Origin: a virus | Virus record (IMG/VR): IMGVR_UViG_3300047508_000090 | Location: 1-45,856 of that record | Direction: 5' to 3' (one strand) | DNA length: 45,856 nucleotides | Shown: positions 17,073 through 40,871 of the stretch, piece by piece | Layout of the letters: each line of letters starts with the position of its first letter | How positions within the stretch are numbered: position 1 is the first letter of the stretch | The notes under the pieces: model-generated | The model's input: only the letters and a program-made list of their open reading frames with translations | Told to the model about the DNA's origin: nothing | Database searches by the model: none | Made by a program: the position numbers and the translations under genes

Positions 17073-17756
17073 TTGAAAGTGCCAAATAACAACATAGGAG
17101 AAAAGCGCCTTCTCGTTTCAACCTTTCCCGATCAGAAAGAAACGTTTCGCATAAAGAAAAATGATGGGACATATGGCAGTCTATTCCTTGGCTTTAAAGA
17201 GTGGAAATTAGACGGGTGGGAAGGCAATCCAACACTTGGTAAGGCGCTCATGGATTGCGACGAAATAAAGGCCGGAGATTACGTCCTGACATCACACAAT
17301 GCTTTCCAGAACGAGCGAATGCAGATTCAGCGGCACGATCTGGATAAATGCAATGTGTATGACCTGGAACCAGATGAGCAGGTATTTTCCATACCAAAGA
17401 GCTTTTGTTGGGTAGGCATTCGGGGAGAAGGTGAATTATTCTCCATTGGAGCTAGTTTAATCTGCAATCGCATCTACGAACCTGCAATAGAAACTATTCT
17501 GATTATTGAGGATAAAAAGAAGATGAAGAACTTCGTGCAAGTTAAACAGATGCCGGATAATCCAGGTCTATACTTTACCGAGGACAATGAGGTCTGCATG
17601 ACTGAAATAAGCGTGGGGGATATTATAGCGGTACACAAGAATGCAGACGTAGAGCATAAGTACGTGTGGGAAAACCAACCACGATCTCTTATCCGGGTTA
17701 ATTTTCAACGTGATTTTCTGTGCGTTCGTACAGAGGGATTAAAATATGAGTTATGA
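17073..17756 (+). CDS. Hypothetical protein, weak GroES-like impression
   Basis: About 227 residues. The frame has no ATG until about residue 60, so TTG at 17073 (or GTG two codons later) is the probable start. The protein is beta-rich with repeated turns of the form AGDYVLTS and, near residue 180, VGDIIAVHKN, which recall co-chaperonin GroES-type strands; this is weak and may be wrong. It ends four bases into the next gene (ATGA). No membrane or catalytic motif is seen. Confidence 0.65.
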   Translation: MKVPNNNIGEKRLLVSTFPDQKETFRIKKNDGTYGSLFLGFKEWKLDGWEGNPTLGKALMDCDEIKAGDYVLTSHNAFQNERMQIQRHDLDKCNVYDLEPDEQVFSIPKSFCWVGIRGEGELFSIGASLICNRIYEPAIETILIIEDKKKMKNFVQVKQMPDNPGLYFTEDNEVCMTEISVGDIIAVHKNADVEHKYVWENQPRSLIRVNFQRDFLCVRTEGLKYEL

Positions 17757-18118
17757 AGAAGCAGATTAACTTCATAGTTCCATTGGCGGTTTATCCATTT
17801 GATGTAATGTGTTCTTTTGGGGAATCGGACGATAAACTAAAGAGTGCGATACAGAAATATGGCGGCAAATGGAATAAAGTGATGATGATTAGTGAAAATG
17901 CAAAAGGAAGAACAGTTGTTTTAAATGGTGGTCAAACATTATTGCGACTATTTAAATATCCTATTGATTGTGAAGATTATGGCATATTGGCTCATGAAAT
18001 ATTCCACGCAGTAGATTTTCTAATGCGACGAATAAATATCAAATTAACAAAAAAATCCGATGAGGCTTATGCTTATCTGATTGGATACCTCACTGAGCAG
18101 ATTTATAAACGTCTTTAA
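17753..18118 (+). CDS. Metallopeptidase-like protein (LAHEIFH)
   Basis: 121 residues. YGILAHEIFHAVDFLMRRI at about residues 79-97 contains HExxH, and SDEAYAYLIGYLTEQIY downstream supplies a possible third acidic ligand (E of DEA). The same arrangement, a small protein with an HExxH followed by a DE-A-x-A-Y-L-xG helix, is common in phage zinc-peptidase-like proteins. It overlaps the previous gene by four bases and lies 11 bases before the AAA+ gene. The substrate is unknown. Confidence 0.75.
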   Translation: MKKQINFIVPLAVYPFDVMCSFGESDDKLKSAIQKYGGKWNKVMMISENAKGRTVVLNGGQTLLRLFKYPIDCEDYGILAHEIFHAVDFLMRRINIKLTKKSDEAYAYLIGYLTEQIYKRL

Positions 18119-18129
18119 CAAATAAAAGA

Positions 18130-19371
18130 ATGATTAACATTCAAGAAATACTGAATAACCCAATCTTAGGGACTGGATTGATAATGACTATCGGCGGTGG
18201 ATTGATATATTCATTGAAGGCATTACCTGGGCAGGCATGGAAAATCGTTAGCAAAAAGATATCTGCAAAACTCGTATACAGCGTTCGGATATATGAATAT
18301 GATGATCTATTCGAACTACTTGAAGCGTGGCTTCAAAAGAATCATCAGAAAGAATATAAGGATGTAGAAGGAAAATTGTTTTCTCCGAATAGTGAACCAC
18401 AAGCCGGGATTAAAAAGACGCCACAGATTTATTACAGCCAATCAACAAACGTATTTATTCTAAATGTGAATGGCAAGCGGCTCTTCATAACCAAAGAACG
18501 TGAAAAACTGGAATATGCTCAAAGCTTCAAATCTCTCTATGGTTATATCTATGTTATAAAGGGATTTAGAGGTAAAGAGGCGATTACCGAAATGCTGCAG
18601 GGGATAGTAAACGAGCATTATGATCAGTTCCCCAAGAATCAGATTCAGATAAGAACAAACGATAAATACGGCAATTGGGATCGCGCTAATTCTCTTACCG
18701 TTAAAGGATTGGAGAAGATAATCATTGATCCGGGATTAAAGACTATGCTGATGAATGATATTGATGAATTCAAGTTATCTAAGGATTGGTATCTTGAAAC
18801 ATCTATCCCTTATAAGAGAACCTATGCATTCCATGGCGGTCCAGGTAATGGTAAGACAAGCATTTGTTTAGCTATTGCCGTTTACACACAGCGGGATATA
18901 TACATATTGAATCCTTCTTCGTTAGAAGGTGACGCAGCATTACAGGCTGCATTTAATAACATAGGAAGTGATGTAGTATTAGTTATAGAAGACATAGATG
19001 CGTCCTTTACAAAACGTGATAGTGAATGTAATATTAGCTTTTCATGCCTATTAAACTGCACAGATGGCGCTTTTTATAAAGAAGGTCTGATTACCTGCAT
19101 CACGACCAATCATCTGGATAAATTAGATCCTGCGCTTCTTAGACCAGGAAGAACCGATATGATCATTGAAATAGACTTCCCTAAAGTACCACAGATTGAA
19201 AAATTCTTGTCAATATTCTACAAACAGGATATTTGCGTTGATTGCGATTGCGAAAATATCTTATTGTCTATGTCAAGTATTCAAGAGATTTGCATTACTA
19301 ATAAGAGCAATCCACAATCAGCAATAAATACAATAAAATCACAATTACTCACTAAACCAGTCTTCATATAA
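18130..19371 (+). CDS. Bcs1-like AAA+ ATPase
   Basis: 413 residues. A possible membrane helix lies at residues 13-30 (ILGTGLIMTIGGGLIYSL). A Bcs1-N-like region follows (residues 40-210), and then an AAA+ core with Walker A GGPGNGKTS at about 236, Walker B VVLVIEDIDAS at about 282, and the second region of homology LLRPGRTDM at about 336. Mitochondrial Bcs1 translocates a folded iron-sulfur protein; bacterial and phage relatives are uncharacterised or linked to defence contexts. Its partners here, a metallopeptidase-like gene just upstream and a small gene 12 bases downstream, suggest a protein-remodelling unit. Confidence 0.85.
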   Translation: MINIQEILNNPILGTGLIMTIGGGLIYSLKALPGQAWKIVSKKISAKLVYSVRIYEYDDLFELLEAWLQKNHQKEYKDVEGKLFSPNSEPQAGIKKTPQIYYSQSTNVFILNVNGKRLFITKEREKLEYAQSFKSLYGYIYVIKGFRGKEAITEMLQGIVNEHYDQFPKNQIQIRTNDKYGNWDRANSLTVKGLEKIIIDPGLKTMLMNDIDEFKLSKDWYLETSIPYKRTYAFHGGPGNGKTSICLAIAVYTQRDIYILNPSSLEGDAALQAAFNNIGSDVVLVIEDIDASFTKRDSECNISFSCLLNCTDGAFYKEGLITCITTNHLDKLDPALLRPGRTDMIIEIDFPKVPQIEKFLSIFYKQDICVDCDCENILLSMSSIQEICITNKSNPQSAINTIKSQLLTKPVFI

Positions 19372-19383
19372 AATCGTATACTA

Positions 19384-19662
19384 ATGGTAACTTCAATTCA
19401 AGAAATTATAGGGCTATCAAAAGAATTTAATAAATTTAAAACGGATAAAAAACGTCTTGACTATATTTATCAGCATAGAGATAAATTAAAGTTAATCTTG
19501 GATAATGATCAGACAAATGTAGAACCAATTTGCAATGAGGCATTAAGAGATGTTTGGCTTGGAAAGGATTTAGAGTTCAATTCATTTGATGAGTATATAG
19601 GATGGGCAGAAGGAGTATTTACACTGCTTGCTTTTTTTGGCATAAAAGCAGAAAGCGTATAA
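19384..19662 (+). CDS. Hypothetical protein, last gene of island 1
   Basis: 92 residues, helical and charged (FNKFKTDKKRLDYIYQHRDKLKLI), with a possible acidic Trp-containing C-terminal half (EALRDVWLGKDLEFNSFDEYIGWAEG). It starts 12 bases after the ATPase gene and ends just before a strong terminator. No family is recognised; it may act with the ATPase. Confidence 0.75.
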   Translation: MVTSIQEIIGLSKEFNKFKTDKKRLDYIYQHRDKLKLILDNDQTNVEPICNEALRDVWLGKDLEFNSFDEYIGWAEGVFTLLAFFGIKAESV

Positions 19663-26656: not shown

Positions 26657-26738
26657 GGTTTATCGCCGAAGCGGGAGAGTCGGGCCAGACTGTAAATCTG
26701 GTGCTTTAGCTGAAAAGGTTCGAATCCTTTATATTCCA
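26657..26738 (+). tRNA. tRNA-Tyr (GTA anticodon), weak acceptor stem
   Basis: The anticodon arm is clear: CCAGA-CTGTAAA-TCTGG, anticodon GTA. A variable arm of about 12 bases (class II, as in bacterial tRNA-Tyr) is followed by a perfect T-arm, AAAGG-TTCGAAT-CCTTT. The D-arm (CCG/CGG with GG in the loop) is acceptable. The acceptor stem GGTTTAT/ATATTCC has two adjacent T-T mismatches, and CCA is not encoded (ACCG follows). It is either a divergent phage tRNA or one beginning to decay. Confidence 0.65.
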
Positions 26739-26844
26739 CCGGGGTTAAAATAAACAATGGATGAAAGACGGCGGTTTGCCTTGTACATTCCGCCATTTCT
26801 TTTAAAATCGAACATTGTCCAGTTTCCGCATAGTAAAACCAAGC

Positions 26845-27057: not shown

Positions 27058-27711
27058 ATGAAGAAGATTATAATTCCATCTTTACCAAATTATTCAATTG
27101 ACATCCTAGGGAGAGTATATAAGCACTCAGGAAATATAGATAAACTATTAGAGAACACTTTTCAAGGGTCTAAACTAATAGTTGATATTTCTGGGAAAAG
27201 TTATGACATCTTCTATCTGCTCATAGAAGCATATTGCATAGTCATCACACCTACAGATAGAATTAAATTTAGAATTAATAAAAAGCATAAAACATTAGCA
27301 CTGGCATCGATTAGAATAACCAAGATAAAAGAAAGGGAGTTCTATGGATCACCAGAAGAAAAGGACATGTCAATATATGGATGTTCTCGTAAGGCAAGCA
27401 ATGCTAATATCAGATTTAATGAGAAGATAAGTGCTGTTGAAATTTATTCTGTAATTAAGACACAGAACTTTACATGTTATTATTGCGATTCAAAATTAGA
27501 ACCTGACAAGTGGCAAATAGATCATTTTTATTCTAAATCACATGGAGGTAAAAATGTATTCGCAAATTTAGTTGCGTCTTGTGAATGTTGTAATAGGATG
27601 AAGCATACATTAGACGGAAGGCAATTTGTGAAAAAATGCGTTATGATATCTAGTAATTTACAATACTTATTATCTGTTCATAATGATCCTAAAAAAGATA
27701 AAGTAATATAA
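27058..27711 (+). CDS. HNH endonuclease (homing-type)
   Basis: 217 residues. The N-terminus (IPSLPNYSIDILGRVYKH) resembles the NUMOD4-like opening of homing HNH enzymes. The C-terminal HNH core has CYYC at about 140, IDHFYSKSHGGKNVFANLV at about 157-175, and CECCNRMK closing the zinc knuckle. All core His/Asn/Cys residues are present, so it should be active. It stands alone between two non-coding structured stretches, the usual setting of a selfish endonuclease inside a structured RNA or intergenic space. Confidence 0.85.
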   Translation: MKKIIIPSLPNYSIDILGRVYKHSGNIDKLLENTFQGSKLIVDISGKSYDIFYLLIEAYCIVITPTDRIKFRINKKHKTLALASIRITKIKEREFYGSPEEKDMSIYGCSRKASNANIRFNEKISAVEIYSVIKTQNFTCYYCDSKLEPDKWQIDHFYSKSHGGKNVFANLVASCECCNRMKHTLDGRQFVKKCVMISSNLQYLLSVHNDPKKDKVI

Positions 27712-30892: not shown

Positions 30893-32926
30893 TTAATTGT
30901 TCCGATTCAAAAGATTGTATGTAGCAATGAGCGGTTTTTCTTTTCTATCTTCTGCGGTTCTTGTCGCTTTTGTATCTCCCAACATGTCGATAAGCATAAT
31001 CAAGAAGGCTACCGTTTTATCGAATACCTGGCGCTCTGAATGGTCATATAATAGCATTTCTTCAAGTAGCTCGATGAACCAAATCTTATGGCAATGATGT
31101 TCGATAAAGGCGATCCCAAGTTCCAATTGCTTCGACAATGCAAATGGATCCTTAGAAGATGTTCCTGGAACTGGACGTCCCGGAGCAATTGGATTACGAG
31201 CGCAGGTAGGTGTCCAGCGGATATAACCGGTATAACCCTCTGCTTTGTAGTACTGATAGTAATCATCCCCGGCATCCGTTTCAAAGTGAACACGTACGCC
31301 ATAGAATATACCAGCAAATAACATTTGATCGTACATGTTCTTCTTTTCCTTGGGACGATCAAAGTAGAAAGCCACTGGCAGTCCTGTGTTTTCAGGATCA
31401 TTCGAATCATATCTTTCTCCGATCCATGCTGCTGTATGAGAAAGGTCTTTATTGCCTTTGGTGAATGAGTGCCGGTGCGGGTCAATTCCATTGGCATATT
31501 TGCCTGTATTCGCAGGCGCCCATCCCTTATCCGTCATCTGCCTACGATTACGCTCACTAATTTCAGGGAATTTAAGGATAAGCCATGGGCCATCTTTCAT
31601 GTCCATGAAATCACATGTTCCGTCATCCTTTTTGAAGAACTTACCACGACGTAAGGTTTTCGGCGCATTATTAATTGCTTCTATCTGATCGGTTATCTTC
31701 TCTACCGAAAAATGACATTTAGCCTGGGAGATCATAAATGCCTCACGCTCATCGAAAGGATTCATCCTGACTTCTTCCGAATATGCAGTTGGATCGCCTC
31801 TTTTCTTTTCTCGATCTTTTAATAGAAAATCTTTCGATCCTTCATAGGCTACACCATAATTCTCTAAATAAACTTTTCTCATGGCCGCAGAAGCGTTCTC
31901 CGTAATCGAGAAGCCATGCTCATCTATGAATCCAGCCAACCCCTCATATGCTGGACAGAAATATCTATATAGTCCAGTACCGGTAATCTTATCTGCGAAC
32001 TGATTTGAATTGTCCCAAACCTCCTTATATGCCCGACCACCGGACTCGGCATCATTTACTGTAGATACCATTAATGCAAATCCAACCCGCTTAAGTCCTT
32101 GGGTAAGAGTTTTCTTTACAATAGGCCAGTACTGATTGATTGGAACCTCTACACTCCATTTACCCGCCTCATCGATGATGATAACAGTAACGCGGCCAGA
32201 GTCATAGCTATTTAACGCCGTAGACTTGTAATCTATACGCGATTCAAGACCCCGATCCCTATTATAGAGTTGCCCCTTTTCTCTGGACTTCTGCTTCCGC
32301 TCCTTGGGCTTTTTAAATGATAAGCTAGTCTTGGATTCTGCTTCTTCAACGCGCGGCTTTAGGAATGCCGGCAGACCATTGAAGGCTTTTACGATCATGT
32401 CAGAGAACAATGTCTTGGCATCTGCCCCTGTCTTGGATACTATACCGCAATTAGACTGAGGCGTTGTTATTGCCGTCCAAAGCGCAAAACACGCCGCCTG
32501 GGAGCTGGCACCCTCACGACGTTTTTTTATCCGGATGATGCCGGTAATATACTTTTGACTCAGACAATAATCCAGGAAATAAAACCACTTCCGATCTGCA
32601 TCTCTAAATTCTGGCTTCGTGCCATCTTCAAGGGTATAGTACTGCAGGTAGAAATAATGGACACCGGTAAGGTAGGTTAACTCGCCACGGTTAAAGAAAT
32701 AGTATCCCTCTTTTATCCTCTCTAGTTCATTTACAACGTAGGACTCCTGCTCCACATCGAGGATCGCATTACCATCCAGGTCAAATTCAACATTGTCAAA
32801 TGAATCTGGTATTGGTTCCCGTACCCACTTCTGATCCCCAAACAATAACTTGTGTCCTTTTACCGTTTCTCTAACAGGATAGGGCGGTGGTGTATAATCT
32901 ATTCCATAGATACTATGACTTTGCAT
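30893..32926 (-). CDS. terL: Terminase large subunit
   Basis: 677 residues. The ATPase part has the Walker A-like segment IKKRREGASSQAACFALW (about 135-152) and Walker B VTVIIIDEAGKW (about 250). The nuclease part has GIDPHRHS (about 495) and HFETDAGDDYYQY (about 570), which supply acidic residues of an RNase H-like fold. Phage terminases cut and pump DNA into the portal. It overlaps the Arg-rich gene upstream by 14 bases and is separated from the portal gene by the whole second island, which is unusual for this pair. Confidence 0.92.
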   Translation of the reverse strand: MQSHSIYGIDYTPPPYPVRETVKGHKLLFGDQKWVREPIPDSFDNVEFDLDGNAILDVEQESYVVNELERIKEGYYFFNRGELTYLTGVHYFYLQYYTLEDGTKPEFRDADRKWFYFLDYCLSQKYITGIIRIKKRREGASSQAACFALWTAITTPQSNCGIVSKTGADAKTLFSDMIVKAFNGLPAFLKPRVEEAESKTSLSFKKPKERKQKSREKGQLYNRDRGLESRIDYKSTALNSYDSGRVTVIIIDEAGKWSVEVPINQYWPIVKKTLTQGLKRVGFALMVSTVNDAESGGRAYKEVWDNSNQFADKITGTGLYRYFCPAYEGLAGFIDEHGFSITENASAAMRKVYLENYGVAYEGSKDFLLKDREKKRGDPTAYSEEVRMNPFDEREAFMISQAKCHFSVEKITDQIEAINNAPKTLRRGKFFKKDDGTCDFMDMKDGPWLILKFPEISERNRRQMTDKGWAPANTGKYANGIDPHRHSFTKGNKDLSHTAAWIGERYDSNDPENTGLPVAFYFDRPKEKKNMYDQMLFAGIFYGVRVHFETDAGDDYYQYYKAEGYTGYIRWTPTCARNPIAPGRPVPGTSSKDPFALSKQLELGIAFIEHHCHKIWFIELLEEMLLYDHSERQVFDKTVAFLIMLIDMLGDTKATRTAEDRKEKPLIATYNLLNRNN

Positions 32927-34663: not shown

Positions 34664-34879
34664 TTATTCGGTGCTTGGTTGGTTTAATTTGTTGACTAAG
34701 TCAAGTAAATCTTCGAATTCTGCATACGTGCAGGTAACTGAGTTGCGCATCATCCGATTAGCGTCATGGATAAATGTGAGCGTCACAGTACGCTTAGAAG
34801 GAGTTTTGTTAACCTCCCACTTGCCTGCACCTGACTTCCACATGCTATCCCGCGACCAGATGTTTTTAATGTTTGCCAT
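34664..34879 (-). CDS. Hypothetical protein
   Basis: 71 residues from ATG 34879 (MANIKNIWSRDSMWKSGAGK); a start 36 bases upstream is possible but less protein-like. Beta-rich centre with Trp and Lys (KWEVNKTPSKRTVTLTFIHD), which could suit a small nucleic-acid-binding fold, and a helical end. No family is recognised. Confidence 0.65.
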   Translation of the reverse strand: MANIKNIWSRDSMWKSGAGKWEVNKTPSKRTVTLTFIHDANRMMRNSVTCTYAEFEDLLDLVNKLNQPSTE

Positions 34880-34936: not shown

Positions 34937-35143
34937 TTACGCAGTAGCCGCTTTTACAGCCCACATTGCCGCATCTTCAAATCCAGTTTGTGCCAGAGAA
35001 GCCAAGCGGCCATCTTTAACTTTTAACTCTTCGCAGATATTAATCAACTCAGCAGCTTTCTGTTTGATTTGGAATACCAAATCTTCATTTGAAGGATTGA
35101 ATTCAATGCGAACTCTTTGTTCGCCGATTGTTTTTTCAGACAT
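34937..35143 (-). CDS. acb2-like: Acb2-like cyclic-nucleotide sponge (anti-CBASS)
   Basis: 68 residues: EQRVRIEFNPSNEDLVFQIK, then QKAAELINICEELKV, and the C-terminal ASLAQTGFEDAAMWAVKAAT. The two-helix build with the terminal E-x-A-A-MW-A-V-K-A motif matches the Acb2/Tad1 hairpin family as I know it. Acb2 binds CBASS signals such as cGAMP and cyclic trinucleotides and so blocks effector activation. ATG 35143 is chosen because a GGAG lies upstream. A Tad2-like gene sits about 580 bases upstream in the same operon. Family recognised by eye, not searched. Confidence 0.65.
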   Translation of the reverse strand: MSEKTIGEQRVRIEFNPSNEDLVFQIKQKAAELINICEELKVKDGRLASLAQTGFEDAAMWAVKAATA

Positions 35144-35144
35144 A

Positions 35145-35225
35145 TTACTTGATTTTTGCTCCTTTTTTAATGACATACGCCAGTAATAATATACAAGCGA
35201 ATGATGAAATAAACTTTACAATCAT
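35145..35225 (-). CDS. 26-residue membrane peptide
   Basis: ATG 35225 overlaps the upstream stop as ATGA and the frame ends two bases before the Acb2-like start. The product MIVKFISSFACILLLAYVIK plus a basic tail is a single hydrophobic helix. Coupled on both sides, so probably translated. Function unknown. Confidence 0.5.
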   Translation of the reverse strand: MIVKFISSFACILLLAYVIKKGAKIK

Positions 35226-35471
35226 TTCTTCGATCTTTTGCTAAGATCTTCAACAGATTCAACTTCCGCCGATTCGCTACCGATCCATTCATTAATAAAC
35301 TGTTTCGCGGCAGAATCGGCAATCTGACGAGCCATAAAAGCATCGACATGCACACCACTCCGTACGATCTCGTTAGATGATATCTGAATCCTGTAATACT
35401 AATGAGTCGAAATAAGTTCCCCCCTTCTTTAAGTGTGATTTCACGTTTTCAAGTTGTTCATTAATTTCCAT
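35222..35471 (-). CDS. Split small gene, +1 frameshift at a TAA-C
   Basis: Frame 1 runs from ATG 35471 (MEINEQLENVKSHLKKGGTY, then FDSLVLQDSDII) to TAA at 35375-35373. The +1 frame goes on directly as NEIVRSGVHVDAFMARQIAD, then SAAKQFINEWIG, to TGA at 35222-35224. Joined, they give one plausible 82-residue helical protein; the second part has no good start of its own near its beginning. The stop is followed by C, a weak termination context that favours frameshifting, but a one-base deletion is equally possible. Confidence 0.55.
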
Positions 35472-35481
35472 AGTATGTTGT

Positions 35482-35712
35482 TTAAAGTAAGTTTAATCCG
35501 ATAATTACCTTTTCCTTGTCTGTAATTTTACGATAAGATCTTTCGAAGACATCTTTTGGCGACCAACTCTGATATCCATCTTCATAAATAATAGTATATC
35601 CTTCTTCATCGATTGTATCACGAGGAATGACATCTCCTTTTATCATTCCATAAAAGTAATTCTTGTGCATTGGCGCTGCATTCACAATTTTTGTTCCGAT
35701 ATAAGATTGCAT
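35482..35712 (-). CDS. Small phage protein (W-S-P-K-x-V-F type)
   Basis: 76 residues. MQSYIGTKIVNAAPMHKNYF opens it, and GYTIIYEDGYQSWSPKDVFE forms the core. Small proteins with 'IGTKxIxAxPM' and 'EGYxVxYxDGYxSWSPKxVFE' are widespread in phages of many hosts; their function is unknown to me. It lies between the Tad2-like gene and the split gene, so it may belong to the same accessory set. Confidence 0.8.
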   Translation of the reverse strand: MQSYIGTKIVNAAPMHKNYFYGMIKGDVIPRDTIDEEGYTIIYEDGYQSWSPKDVFERSYRKITDKEKVIIGLNLL

Positions 35713-35721
35713 ATTATTTGT

Positions 35722-36150
35722 TTATGAGTTTACAATCTGCCAGTCATTGGCAAGAATATCTGTTTGAGATGGCAACCAGGGAGTTACTGTGCCATTAACA
35801 GATTTTATCTGTAGATATGGCGTAGCATCATATACTTCATCATTCATAGAGAATGTACCGCCGCCGACCATCTGAATCCACATTCCTTTACCATTCCAGC
35901 CATTACGCTCTATGCGTTTCCCGTTTTTTAGGAATCGTAAAGCCATATCAAATGACCATCTAGTCTCTGTAGCTATTTCCCAGTCATTCCTATTTTGATA
36001 AATAGAAACATTCGGCTTATCTAATATATCGCCATCTCTGGTAAACACTTTGATAAATTTACCATCTGGCATATACCAATAACCCAACCAATCGGAGAGA
36101 CGAACCCGTTTCCCGTCAATCATTTCTTGTACTGCTTGTTCAAAGTTCAT
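35722..36150 (-). CDS. tad2-like: Tad2-like anti-Thoeris protein with two DUF2829-like halves
   Basis: 142 residues. The C-terminal half (WSFDMALRFLKNGKRIERNG, then WNGKGMWIQMV, and PWLPSQTDILANDWQIV at the end) matches DUF2829, the family of Tad2. The N-terminal half (MNFEQAVQEMIDGKRVRLSD, then WLGYWYMPDGKF... NDWEIA) looks like a diverged second copy. Tad2 sequesters the Thoeris signal 1''-3' gcADPR; standard Tad2 is about half this length. The tandem form could be a built-in dimer. Upstream of the Acb2-like gene. Confidence 0.75.
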   Translation of the reverse strand: MNFEQAVQEMIDGKRVRLSDWLGYWYMPDGKFIKVFTRDGDILDKPNVSIYQNRNDWEIATETRWSFDMALRFLKNGKRIERNGWNGKGMWIQMVGGGTFSMNDEVYDATPYLQIKSVNGTVTPWLPSQTDILANDWQIVNS

Positions 36151-37423: not shown

Positions 37424-37564
37424 TTAAAGTATTATTGGTTCAACCATATTATCACAATTCGGACAATCTATCTCATCCATGGTGACAGGCCATATCCCAA
37501 CCCATCGATGTGTGCAAAGCGGACACTCTACCAGCGCTACGTTATATGGGCCGTCGTTATTCAT
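37424..37564 (-). CDS. 46-residue zinc-ribbon protein
   Basis: MNNDGPYNVALVECPLCTHR, then DCPNCDN: two CxxC knuckles about 18 residues apart form a zinc ribbon. ATG 37564 overlaps the upstream stop as ATGAATAA and the stop lies four bases before the IHF-like start. Missed by length filters. Probably a nucleic-acid or protein adaptor. Confidence 0.7.
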   Translation of the reverse strand: MNNDGPYNVALVECPLCTHRWVGIWPVTMDEIDCPNCDNMVEPIIL

Positions 37565-39897: not shown

Positions 39898-40380
39898 TCA
39901 TACTATTTTAATCCTATAATAGCCACATAATTCCCTTGTACACCTCTTTACAATATTATTAATCTTTGACTTTTGATAAATAAGTCGAATGTCAGTCATG
40001 CTTAAACGGCGACCATCAGGGAAACAATACAAATAAATACCTCTAGATTTACAATCCGTAAAATCAATACGCCTACTAGGATAAATATAAATACTGCTGA
40101 CATATTCTAGATTGTCAAAGCTATTATTATCCTTATCCCCATCCCGGTGCTTAATCCACCGGCTCAGCGGCTCATCTATGAAATATTTCGCCACTAATCT
40201 ATGAACATAAAACAATTTTCTAAATCCATCATTACATAACTGAACTGTACAATATCCAGCCTTCGTTTTACCATATCGAAGCCGTACCTCCTTATTACTA
40301 TTACGTCCATAAGACATTATAACCCCATCATCACTGATTGTATAATTTGGATAATCATCTATTCTCTTTATAGAAACCAT
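39898..40380 (-). CDS. HNH homing endonuclease (NUMOD4-HNH type)
   Basis: 160 residues from ATG 40380 (MVSIKRIDDYPNYTISDDGV); an upstream start at 40395 is possible. NUMOD4-like opening, then an HNH_3 core: FYVHRLVAKYFI (His) and IKHRDGDKDNNSFDNLEYVS (His, Asp, Asn-Asn). The C-terminus (LSMTDIRLIYQKSKINNIVK) could be a DNA-binding helix pair. A free-standing selfish endonuclease inside the switch region. Unlike the HNH at 27058, it has no zinc-binding Cys pairs. Confidence 0.85.
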   Translation of the reverse strand: MVSIKRIDDYPNYTISDDGVIMSYGRNSNKEVRLRYGKTKAGYCTVQLCNDGFRKLFYVHRLVAKYFIDEPLSRWIKHRDGDKDNNSFDNLEYVSSIYIYPSRRIDFTDCKSRGIYLYCFPDGRRLSMTDIRLIYQKSKINNIVKRCTRELCGYYRIKIV

Positions 40381-40871
40381 ATTTATGTTTATCACAAATG
40401 TATGTAGTTTACGATAAAATTAACCAGATATATCTACGCATAGGTCTTCCCCCACGCGCAGGGAGTCAAACGATTCTGGGGAAACGAAATCTGTTGACCC
40501 GGGTGGGCTAACTTTCAGGGAACAAACTTGCCGATTGTTTTTGTTTTTGTTGGCGAGGGGAACTTGTTGATTCAATAACTAATTGTTCTGTGATTGGAAC
40601 CTGGTTTGACATTGATAACCACAATATTCATGAATGGTATAGCTTAAAAAGGGGAAACGCGACAAACTAATAGTATATTGATTTAGTAGGATAATATTTA
40701 TTATGTTAAATAGACATAGATATAACGCTGTAACTGTTGCTGGTTGTACATCACAGCGTATTAATCATACTTATATGTGTTCACAACTTCGGATAATATA
40801 ACATCACGACACTATGTCACATATAAACCCGCGCACGTATCTTATATATACACCACATTATTCCATTTGTC

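Follow-up and report, generated by a model that had tools for sequence, protein, structure and literature searches.

The window is a complete virus record of 45,856 bases. Between 36150 and 34937, its minus strand carries a compact run of small genes, situated shortly upstream of the genes for terminase. Along that strand, the run contains, in order, a Tad2-like gene (35722-36150; 142 aa, two Tad2-like domains in tandem), a stand-alone YIGT domain gene (35482-35712; 76 aa), the broken copy of an 85-aa gene (35222-35471), a 26-aa putative membrane peptide (35145-35225) and an Acb2-like gene (34937-35143; 68 aa). The genes of this cassette lie a few bases apart or overlap, the run reaches as far as the gene for the terminase large subunit (30893-32926), and the cassette may well be expressed as one transcript; a scan for Bacteroidota promoter motifs gave nothing above chance. 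A DNA-level search of phage records returned no match, and the window is therefore without a close isolate. Its terminase is nearest, at 29% identity, to those of Flavobacterium 'elemo' and Cellulophaga podoviruses, relatives of its Acb2-like protein occur at ~50% in Flavobacterium columnare phages, and an Acb2 profile search of genome contigs yielded only one relative, in a Flavobacteriaceae MAG. Because of these relatives, the host is presumed to be a member of the Bacteroidota. One near-identical relative at the locus, L002, served as the reference for comparisons of dN/dS and gene integrity.

The initial annotation recognized in this run a 68-residue Acb2-like protein and, about 580 bases upstream, a DUF2829-type protein, and proposed profile searches as the check on both. 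Both assignments hold. The two reported C-terminal sequences are in frame on the minus strand, 578 bases separate the tad2 stop (35722) from the acb2 start (35143), and the proteins score 48.9 bits (7.6e-13) against PF24729, the Acb2/Tad1 hairpin, and 100.4 bits (8e-29) against PF11195, over Pfam gathering scores of 27 and 25, respectively; judged by these scores, neither match is due to chance. The Acb2-like ORF measures 79 aa from its outermost ATG (35176) and 68 aa from an inner ATG (35143). The latter is likely the start of the gene, since it adjoins the stop of the upstream small peptide (TAATATG) and L002 starts there too.

Eighteen Acb2 homologues share the motif R-V-R-x-x-F-N-P-S, an invariant K27 and a C-terminal helix, A-Q-T...D-A-A-M-W-A-V-K. 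Two positions in the Acb2 of phage T4 are reported to affect binding: a Y8A mutant is deficient in it, and T68M reportedly weakens it (PMC12657230). When the window protein is aligned with Acb2 proteins of the T4 type, F15-x-P falls opposite Y8-x-P and T53 opposite T68, with F15 invariant and T53 nearly invariant in the 18 homologues; as aligned, the window protein keeps counterparts of both T4 positions, F15 being a conservative change. Like T4 Vs.4 (PDB 7uq2), it combines membership of the hairpin family with an N-terminal aromatic-x-P and a helix of the form A-x-T...A-x-M-W-A; it differs from Vs.4 in having Phe in place of Tyr at the Y8 position and in its much shorter hairpin, and the two are ~25% identical over 28 aligned columns. 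Outside the hairpin family, similarity is weak; in profile searches, T4 Vs.4 was matched weakly, on the same helix, and none of the solved Acb2 structures was matched by the window protein below E = 0.2. Between the window and L002, the dN/dS of acb2 is 0.019, as low as that of terL, and the gene is under extreme purifying selection. Carrying Acb2 comes at a cost, in that Panoptes systems sense sponges (PMC12657218, PMC12657230).

The Tad2-like protein has two parts. The canonical C-terminal Tad2 domain (residues 66-140; 35731-35955, minus strand) keeps the pocket loops, namely the WNGKGM loop, present as WNGKGMW, and PWxxSQTD...DW, including the PWLPSQTDILANDW segment. The N-terminal 62 residues (35965-36150, minus strand) lack the WNGKGM and SQTD motifs, score 19.5 bits against PF11195, i.e. 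below the cut-off of 25, and also match phrog_1048 and phrog_6670; they are read here, from the sequence, as a second, degenerate Tad2-like domain. The same tandem arrangement is found in a protein of a Ruminococcus phage. The best match in the PDB is ModTad2 (9eib) at 5.3e-16, followed by SPO1 Tad2 (8sme) at 4.8e-12. With ModTad2/MoTad2 (PDB 9eib, 8v3e; Myroides prophage), the closest solved structure, the window C-domain shares the motifs WNGKGM and S-x-(T/S)DILA-x-DW, and one difference is the additional degenerate N-domain of the window protein. A single-sequence AlphaFold2 model of the Tad2-like protein was too poor to keep (pLDDT 35). At L119:5734-6300 and L131:5764-6354, the domain at the N-terminus of the encoded Tad2 proteins is a different one (KKPVVIEA...GDW.I.G); that domain is common in phages and may be a distant analogue of YIGT.

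As regards ligands, MoTad2 is reported to bind His-ADPR, the signal of type II Thoeris, and SPO1 Tad2 to bind gcADPR (PMC13299392). Since the nearest solved relative is ModTad2, ahead of SPO1 Tad2, the candidate ligand is kept at His-ADPR or gcADPR, between which the sequence cannot tell. Some Tad2 proteins carry a cyclic-dinucleotide insertion in one loop (PMC12043709), and SPO1 Tad2 does not bind 3'3'-cGAMP (PMC11722364). In the window protein, this loop has 8 residues fewer than its SPO1 Tad2 counterpart, and a loop shorter by 8 residues also distinguishes the window protein from ModTad2/MoTad2. Because the loop is shorter than that of a protein that does not bind 3'3'-cGAMP, the window Tad2 is predicted to be specific for TIR signals and hence complementary to Acb2.

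Comparison with L002 sets the two Tad2-like domains apart, dN/dS being 0.034 in the N-domain versus 0.315, with indels, in the C-domain, where WNGKGMW and PWLPSQT are lost in L002; pocket motifs are thus missing both from the window N-domain and from the L002 C-domain. Given this motif loss, the anti-Thoeris half of the locus is less certain, and sponge function would not be strictly maintained in L002; the Tad2 half is evolving fast under changing selection, and its activity in the lineage is less sure. The same figures would suit an arrangement in which the Acb2-like gene alone works as a sponge, the Tad2-like protein having been turned to another use or ligand by an N-domain that is strongly conserved though without pocket motifs, with the C-domain drifting. 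That arrangement is improbable, because the window C-domain is intact, both by its score against the Tad2 family (100 bits) and by its match to ModTad2 (5e-16), and because the tandem form with an intact C-domain is found in distant phages.

The initial annotation had counted four other small genes between and beside the pair and had taken them for candidate anti-defence genes. That count needs revision, as a 43-aa ORF (35222-35353) is rejected as a gene, being the out-of-frame rest of the 85-aa gene, of which L002 has an intact version, and the 26-aa ORF (35145-35225) had been missed. In DNA alignment with L002:2821-3078, the 85-aa gene starts with an ATG at 35471, carries a 2-base deletion beside 35375/35376 and stops after 32 codons; the deletion may be genuine, or it may stem from an error in the assembly. 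Of the 26 residues of the small peptide (MIVKFISSFACILLLAYVIKKGAKIK), 24 are kept in L002; the peptide's ATG shares bases with the stop of the 85-aa gene, and its stop abuts the acb2 start. Next after acb2 comes a 71-aa gene of no known family (MANIK...; 34664-34879, minus strand), with a dN/dS of 0.054 against L002; this gene and the 66- and 84-aa genes that follow are under purifying selection in the same comparison and have no informative relatives in Pfam and PHROG searches. No gene of the cassette matches the PF13876 (Acb4) domain, which is matched only in YIGT relatives elsewhere. Among the small genes, only the 76-aa YIGT gene gains support for the proposed anti-defence role, through the fusions of its domain to known sponges.

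Other parts of the window hold further accessory features. A block of plus-strand genes at 17073-19662, amid minus-strand structural genes, encodes among others an AAA ATPase of 413 aa that is weakly similar to BCS1_N (phrog_7485); the block has the look of an accessory cassette that was inserted, and it could serve in defence or counter-defence. A tRNA-Tyr gene (26657-26740, plus strand) has the portal gene on one side and a block of small plus-strand genes on the other, and two HNH endonuclease genes (39898-40395, minus strand, and 27058-27711, plus strand), one with NUMOD4, are likely homing elements.

No Pfam family covers the 76-aa YIGT gene. In PHROGs, the gene matches phrog_9467 (1.5e-19) and is grouped with phrog_872, a family whose C-terminal half is Tad2-like. 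The YIGT-Tad2 fusions of phrog_872 comprise the same two domains as the window genes at 35482-35712 and 35722-36150, as a single polypeptide with YIGT first, whereas the window has two genes in the opposite order. A YIGT-only scan retrieved 70 distinct proteins, in 15 of which the domain stands alone and in 55 of which it is fused, the partners being Tad2 (34), Acb4 (11), crAss001_48 (PF21825; 8), Tad1 (1) and an unknown tail (1). Acb4 is the PF13876 family (PMC11722364). The YIGT-Tad1 fusion protein matches solved Tad1 at 9.5e-29. Of the 55 fused proteins, 46 carry a member of three unrelated families of proven sponges. In one Yersinia phage protein, YIGT is joined to an RyR domain. At L203:1713-2393, YIGT is C-terminal to an Acb4 domain, and a Tad2 gene of its own lies ~900 bases upstream; a sponge domain can have YIGT on either side.

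AlphaFold2 confidently predicts YIGT as a small beta-rich fold (pLDDT 93.6), SH3/Tudor-like in character. A sequence search of the PDB with YIGT gave no match, and a Foldseek search against the PDB gave nothing significant (best E 0.43), the nearest solved structures, at non-significant values, being the Tudor/RNA-polymerase-binding domains of Mfd and UvrD. Among predicted viral structures, the top matches include RyR and Tad2 fusion proteins. The YIGT gene is missing from L002 as a precise cassette, and the lineage therefore does not require it. In a literature search that had most subscription journals outside its reach, a description of the YIGT domain was not found.

The pairing of Acb2 with Tad2 extends to other viruses. 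Among loci fetched by Acb2, Tad2 or YIGT, same-strand adjacency of the two was seen in L048, L059, L112, L121 and L155, in addition to the lineage of the window and L002. The paired loci differ in their flanking genes and both gene orders occur; the unrelated viral contigs that show the adjacency number four or five. Within this set of loci, Tad2 was never found at a non-adjacent place in an acb2 locus, and Tad2-like proteins are the most sequence-diverse neighbour family occurring on both sides of acb2. Under uniform placement, the probability of the observed distances is ~3e-8, or 5e-10 with strand, values that overstate the surprise, as small accessory phage genes cluster. In L155 (5558-6294), an Acb2-like gene (PF24729, 58.9 bits) lies ~40 bases upstream of a fused YIGT-Tad2 with N-terminal YIGT, and the locus holds the window's three parts in more compact form. 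A second recurrent neighbour of Acb2 is a small zinc-ribbon protein (CPLCTHRW...CPNC), found in the window at 37424-37564 (minus strand), with relatives directly upstream of acb2 at L006:5463-5930 and L023:5829-5996.

Sponge pairs have a precedent in phage N4, and the notion that such a pair is unprecedented is rejected. There, gp48 (Acb4, PF13876; a verified sponge) shares one base with gp49, in which YIGT and Tad2 are fused. Like the window, N4 has two adjoining sponge genes that belong to different families, and both Tad2 and YIGT occur there; unlike the window, it has Acb4 in the place of Acb2, and its YIGT is fused to Tad2 rather than separate. N4 gp48-gp49 is thus an independent precedent.

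The locus is probably best explained as a small cassette for counter-defence, carried by a phage with hosts of the Bacteroidota type, in which YIGT would support Acb2 and Tad2 sponges for complementary signals. Most likely, the Acb2-like protein would assemble as Acb2 does and trap CBASS cyclic oligonucleotides, possibly along with those of type III CRISPR and decoy systems, and the tandem Tad2-like protein would trap an NAD-derived TIR (Thoeris) signal, i.e. His-ADPR or a cyclic ADPR isomer. With their alarm nucleotides held by the two proteins, the CBASS and TIR effectors would not be switched on, and the pair would cover complementary signals. The 76-aa YIGT protein would be a detached version of the domain that is fused elsewhere to Tad2, Tad1 and Acb4, probably supporting the sponges through assembly, recruitment or placement, or extra ligand contacts. 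The earlier suggestion that this phage blocks two signalling defences by ligand capture is thus borne out in part: the profile matches, pocket motifs, selection on acb2 and adjacency agree with it; gcADPR is one of two candidate Tad2 ligands, with ModTad2 nearest, and the loss of Tad2 motifs in L002 makes the Tad2 half less sure. Counting against a counter-defence reading, the cassette adjoins packaging genes and does not lie in an obvious early region.

Instead, proteins with the Acb2 and Tad2 folds might have everyday roles in the phage, for example in regulation or assembly, under family names that over-annotate. This would fit the many members of both families without a tested function and the position of acb2 near terminase genes in the window and other loci. 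It is nonetheless quite improbable: positions important in T4 Acb2 are conserved, precisely these two families are paired repeatedly, and N4 provides a link to proven sponges. On the counter-defence reading, the pair adds a Bacteroidota-type example to the stacking of sponges for different alarm molecules, which has already been seen in N4 and SPO1.

For YIGT itself, we tentatively propose that it is a previously unnamed companion module shared by phage nucleotide-signal sponges, fused or separate, that works with Tad1, Tad2 and Acb4, and whose other partners are thereby flagged. Somewhat doubtful is the alternative of a generic SH3/Tudor-like adaptor, for protein-protein or protein-RNA polymerase contacts, that is unrelated to sponges and was fused to them by chance; it would accord with the resemblance, albeit non-significant, to the RNA-polymerase-binding domains of Mfd and UvrD and with the 15 of 70 proteins in which YIGT stands alone, and it is opposed by the predominance of Tad2, Acb4 and Tad1 among the fusions and by RyR and crAss001_48 as further partners. 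What is new is a domain grammar, in which a single small domain is found repeatedly in the company of sponges from three unrelated families. The crAss001_48 family occurs in crAss-like gut phages, and we know of no function for it. If the companion-module proposal is true, YIGT would mark this family, the phage RyR-domain proteins and the genes next to stand-alone YIGT as sponges or signal binders yet to be discovered, and its recurrence would offer a straightforward handle in the search for new anti-defence proteins, crAss001_48 included.
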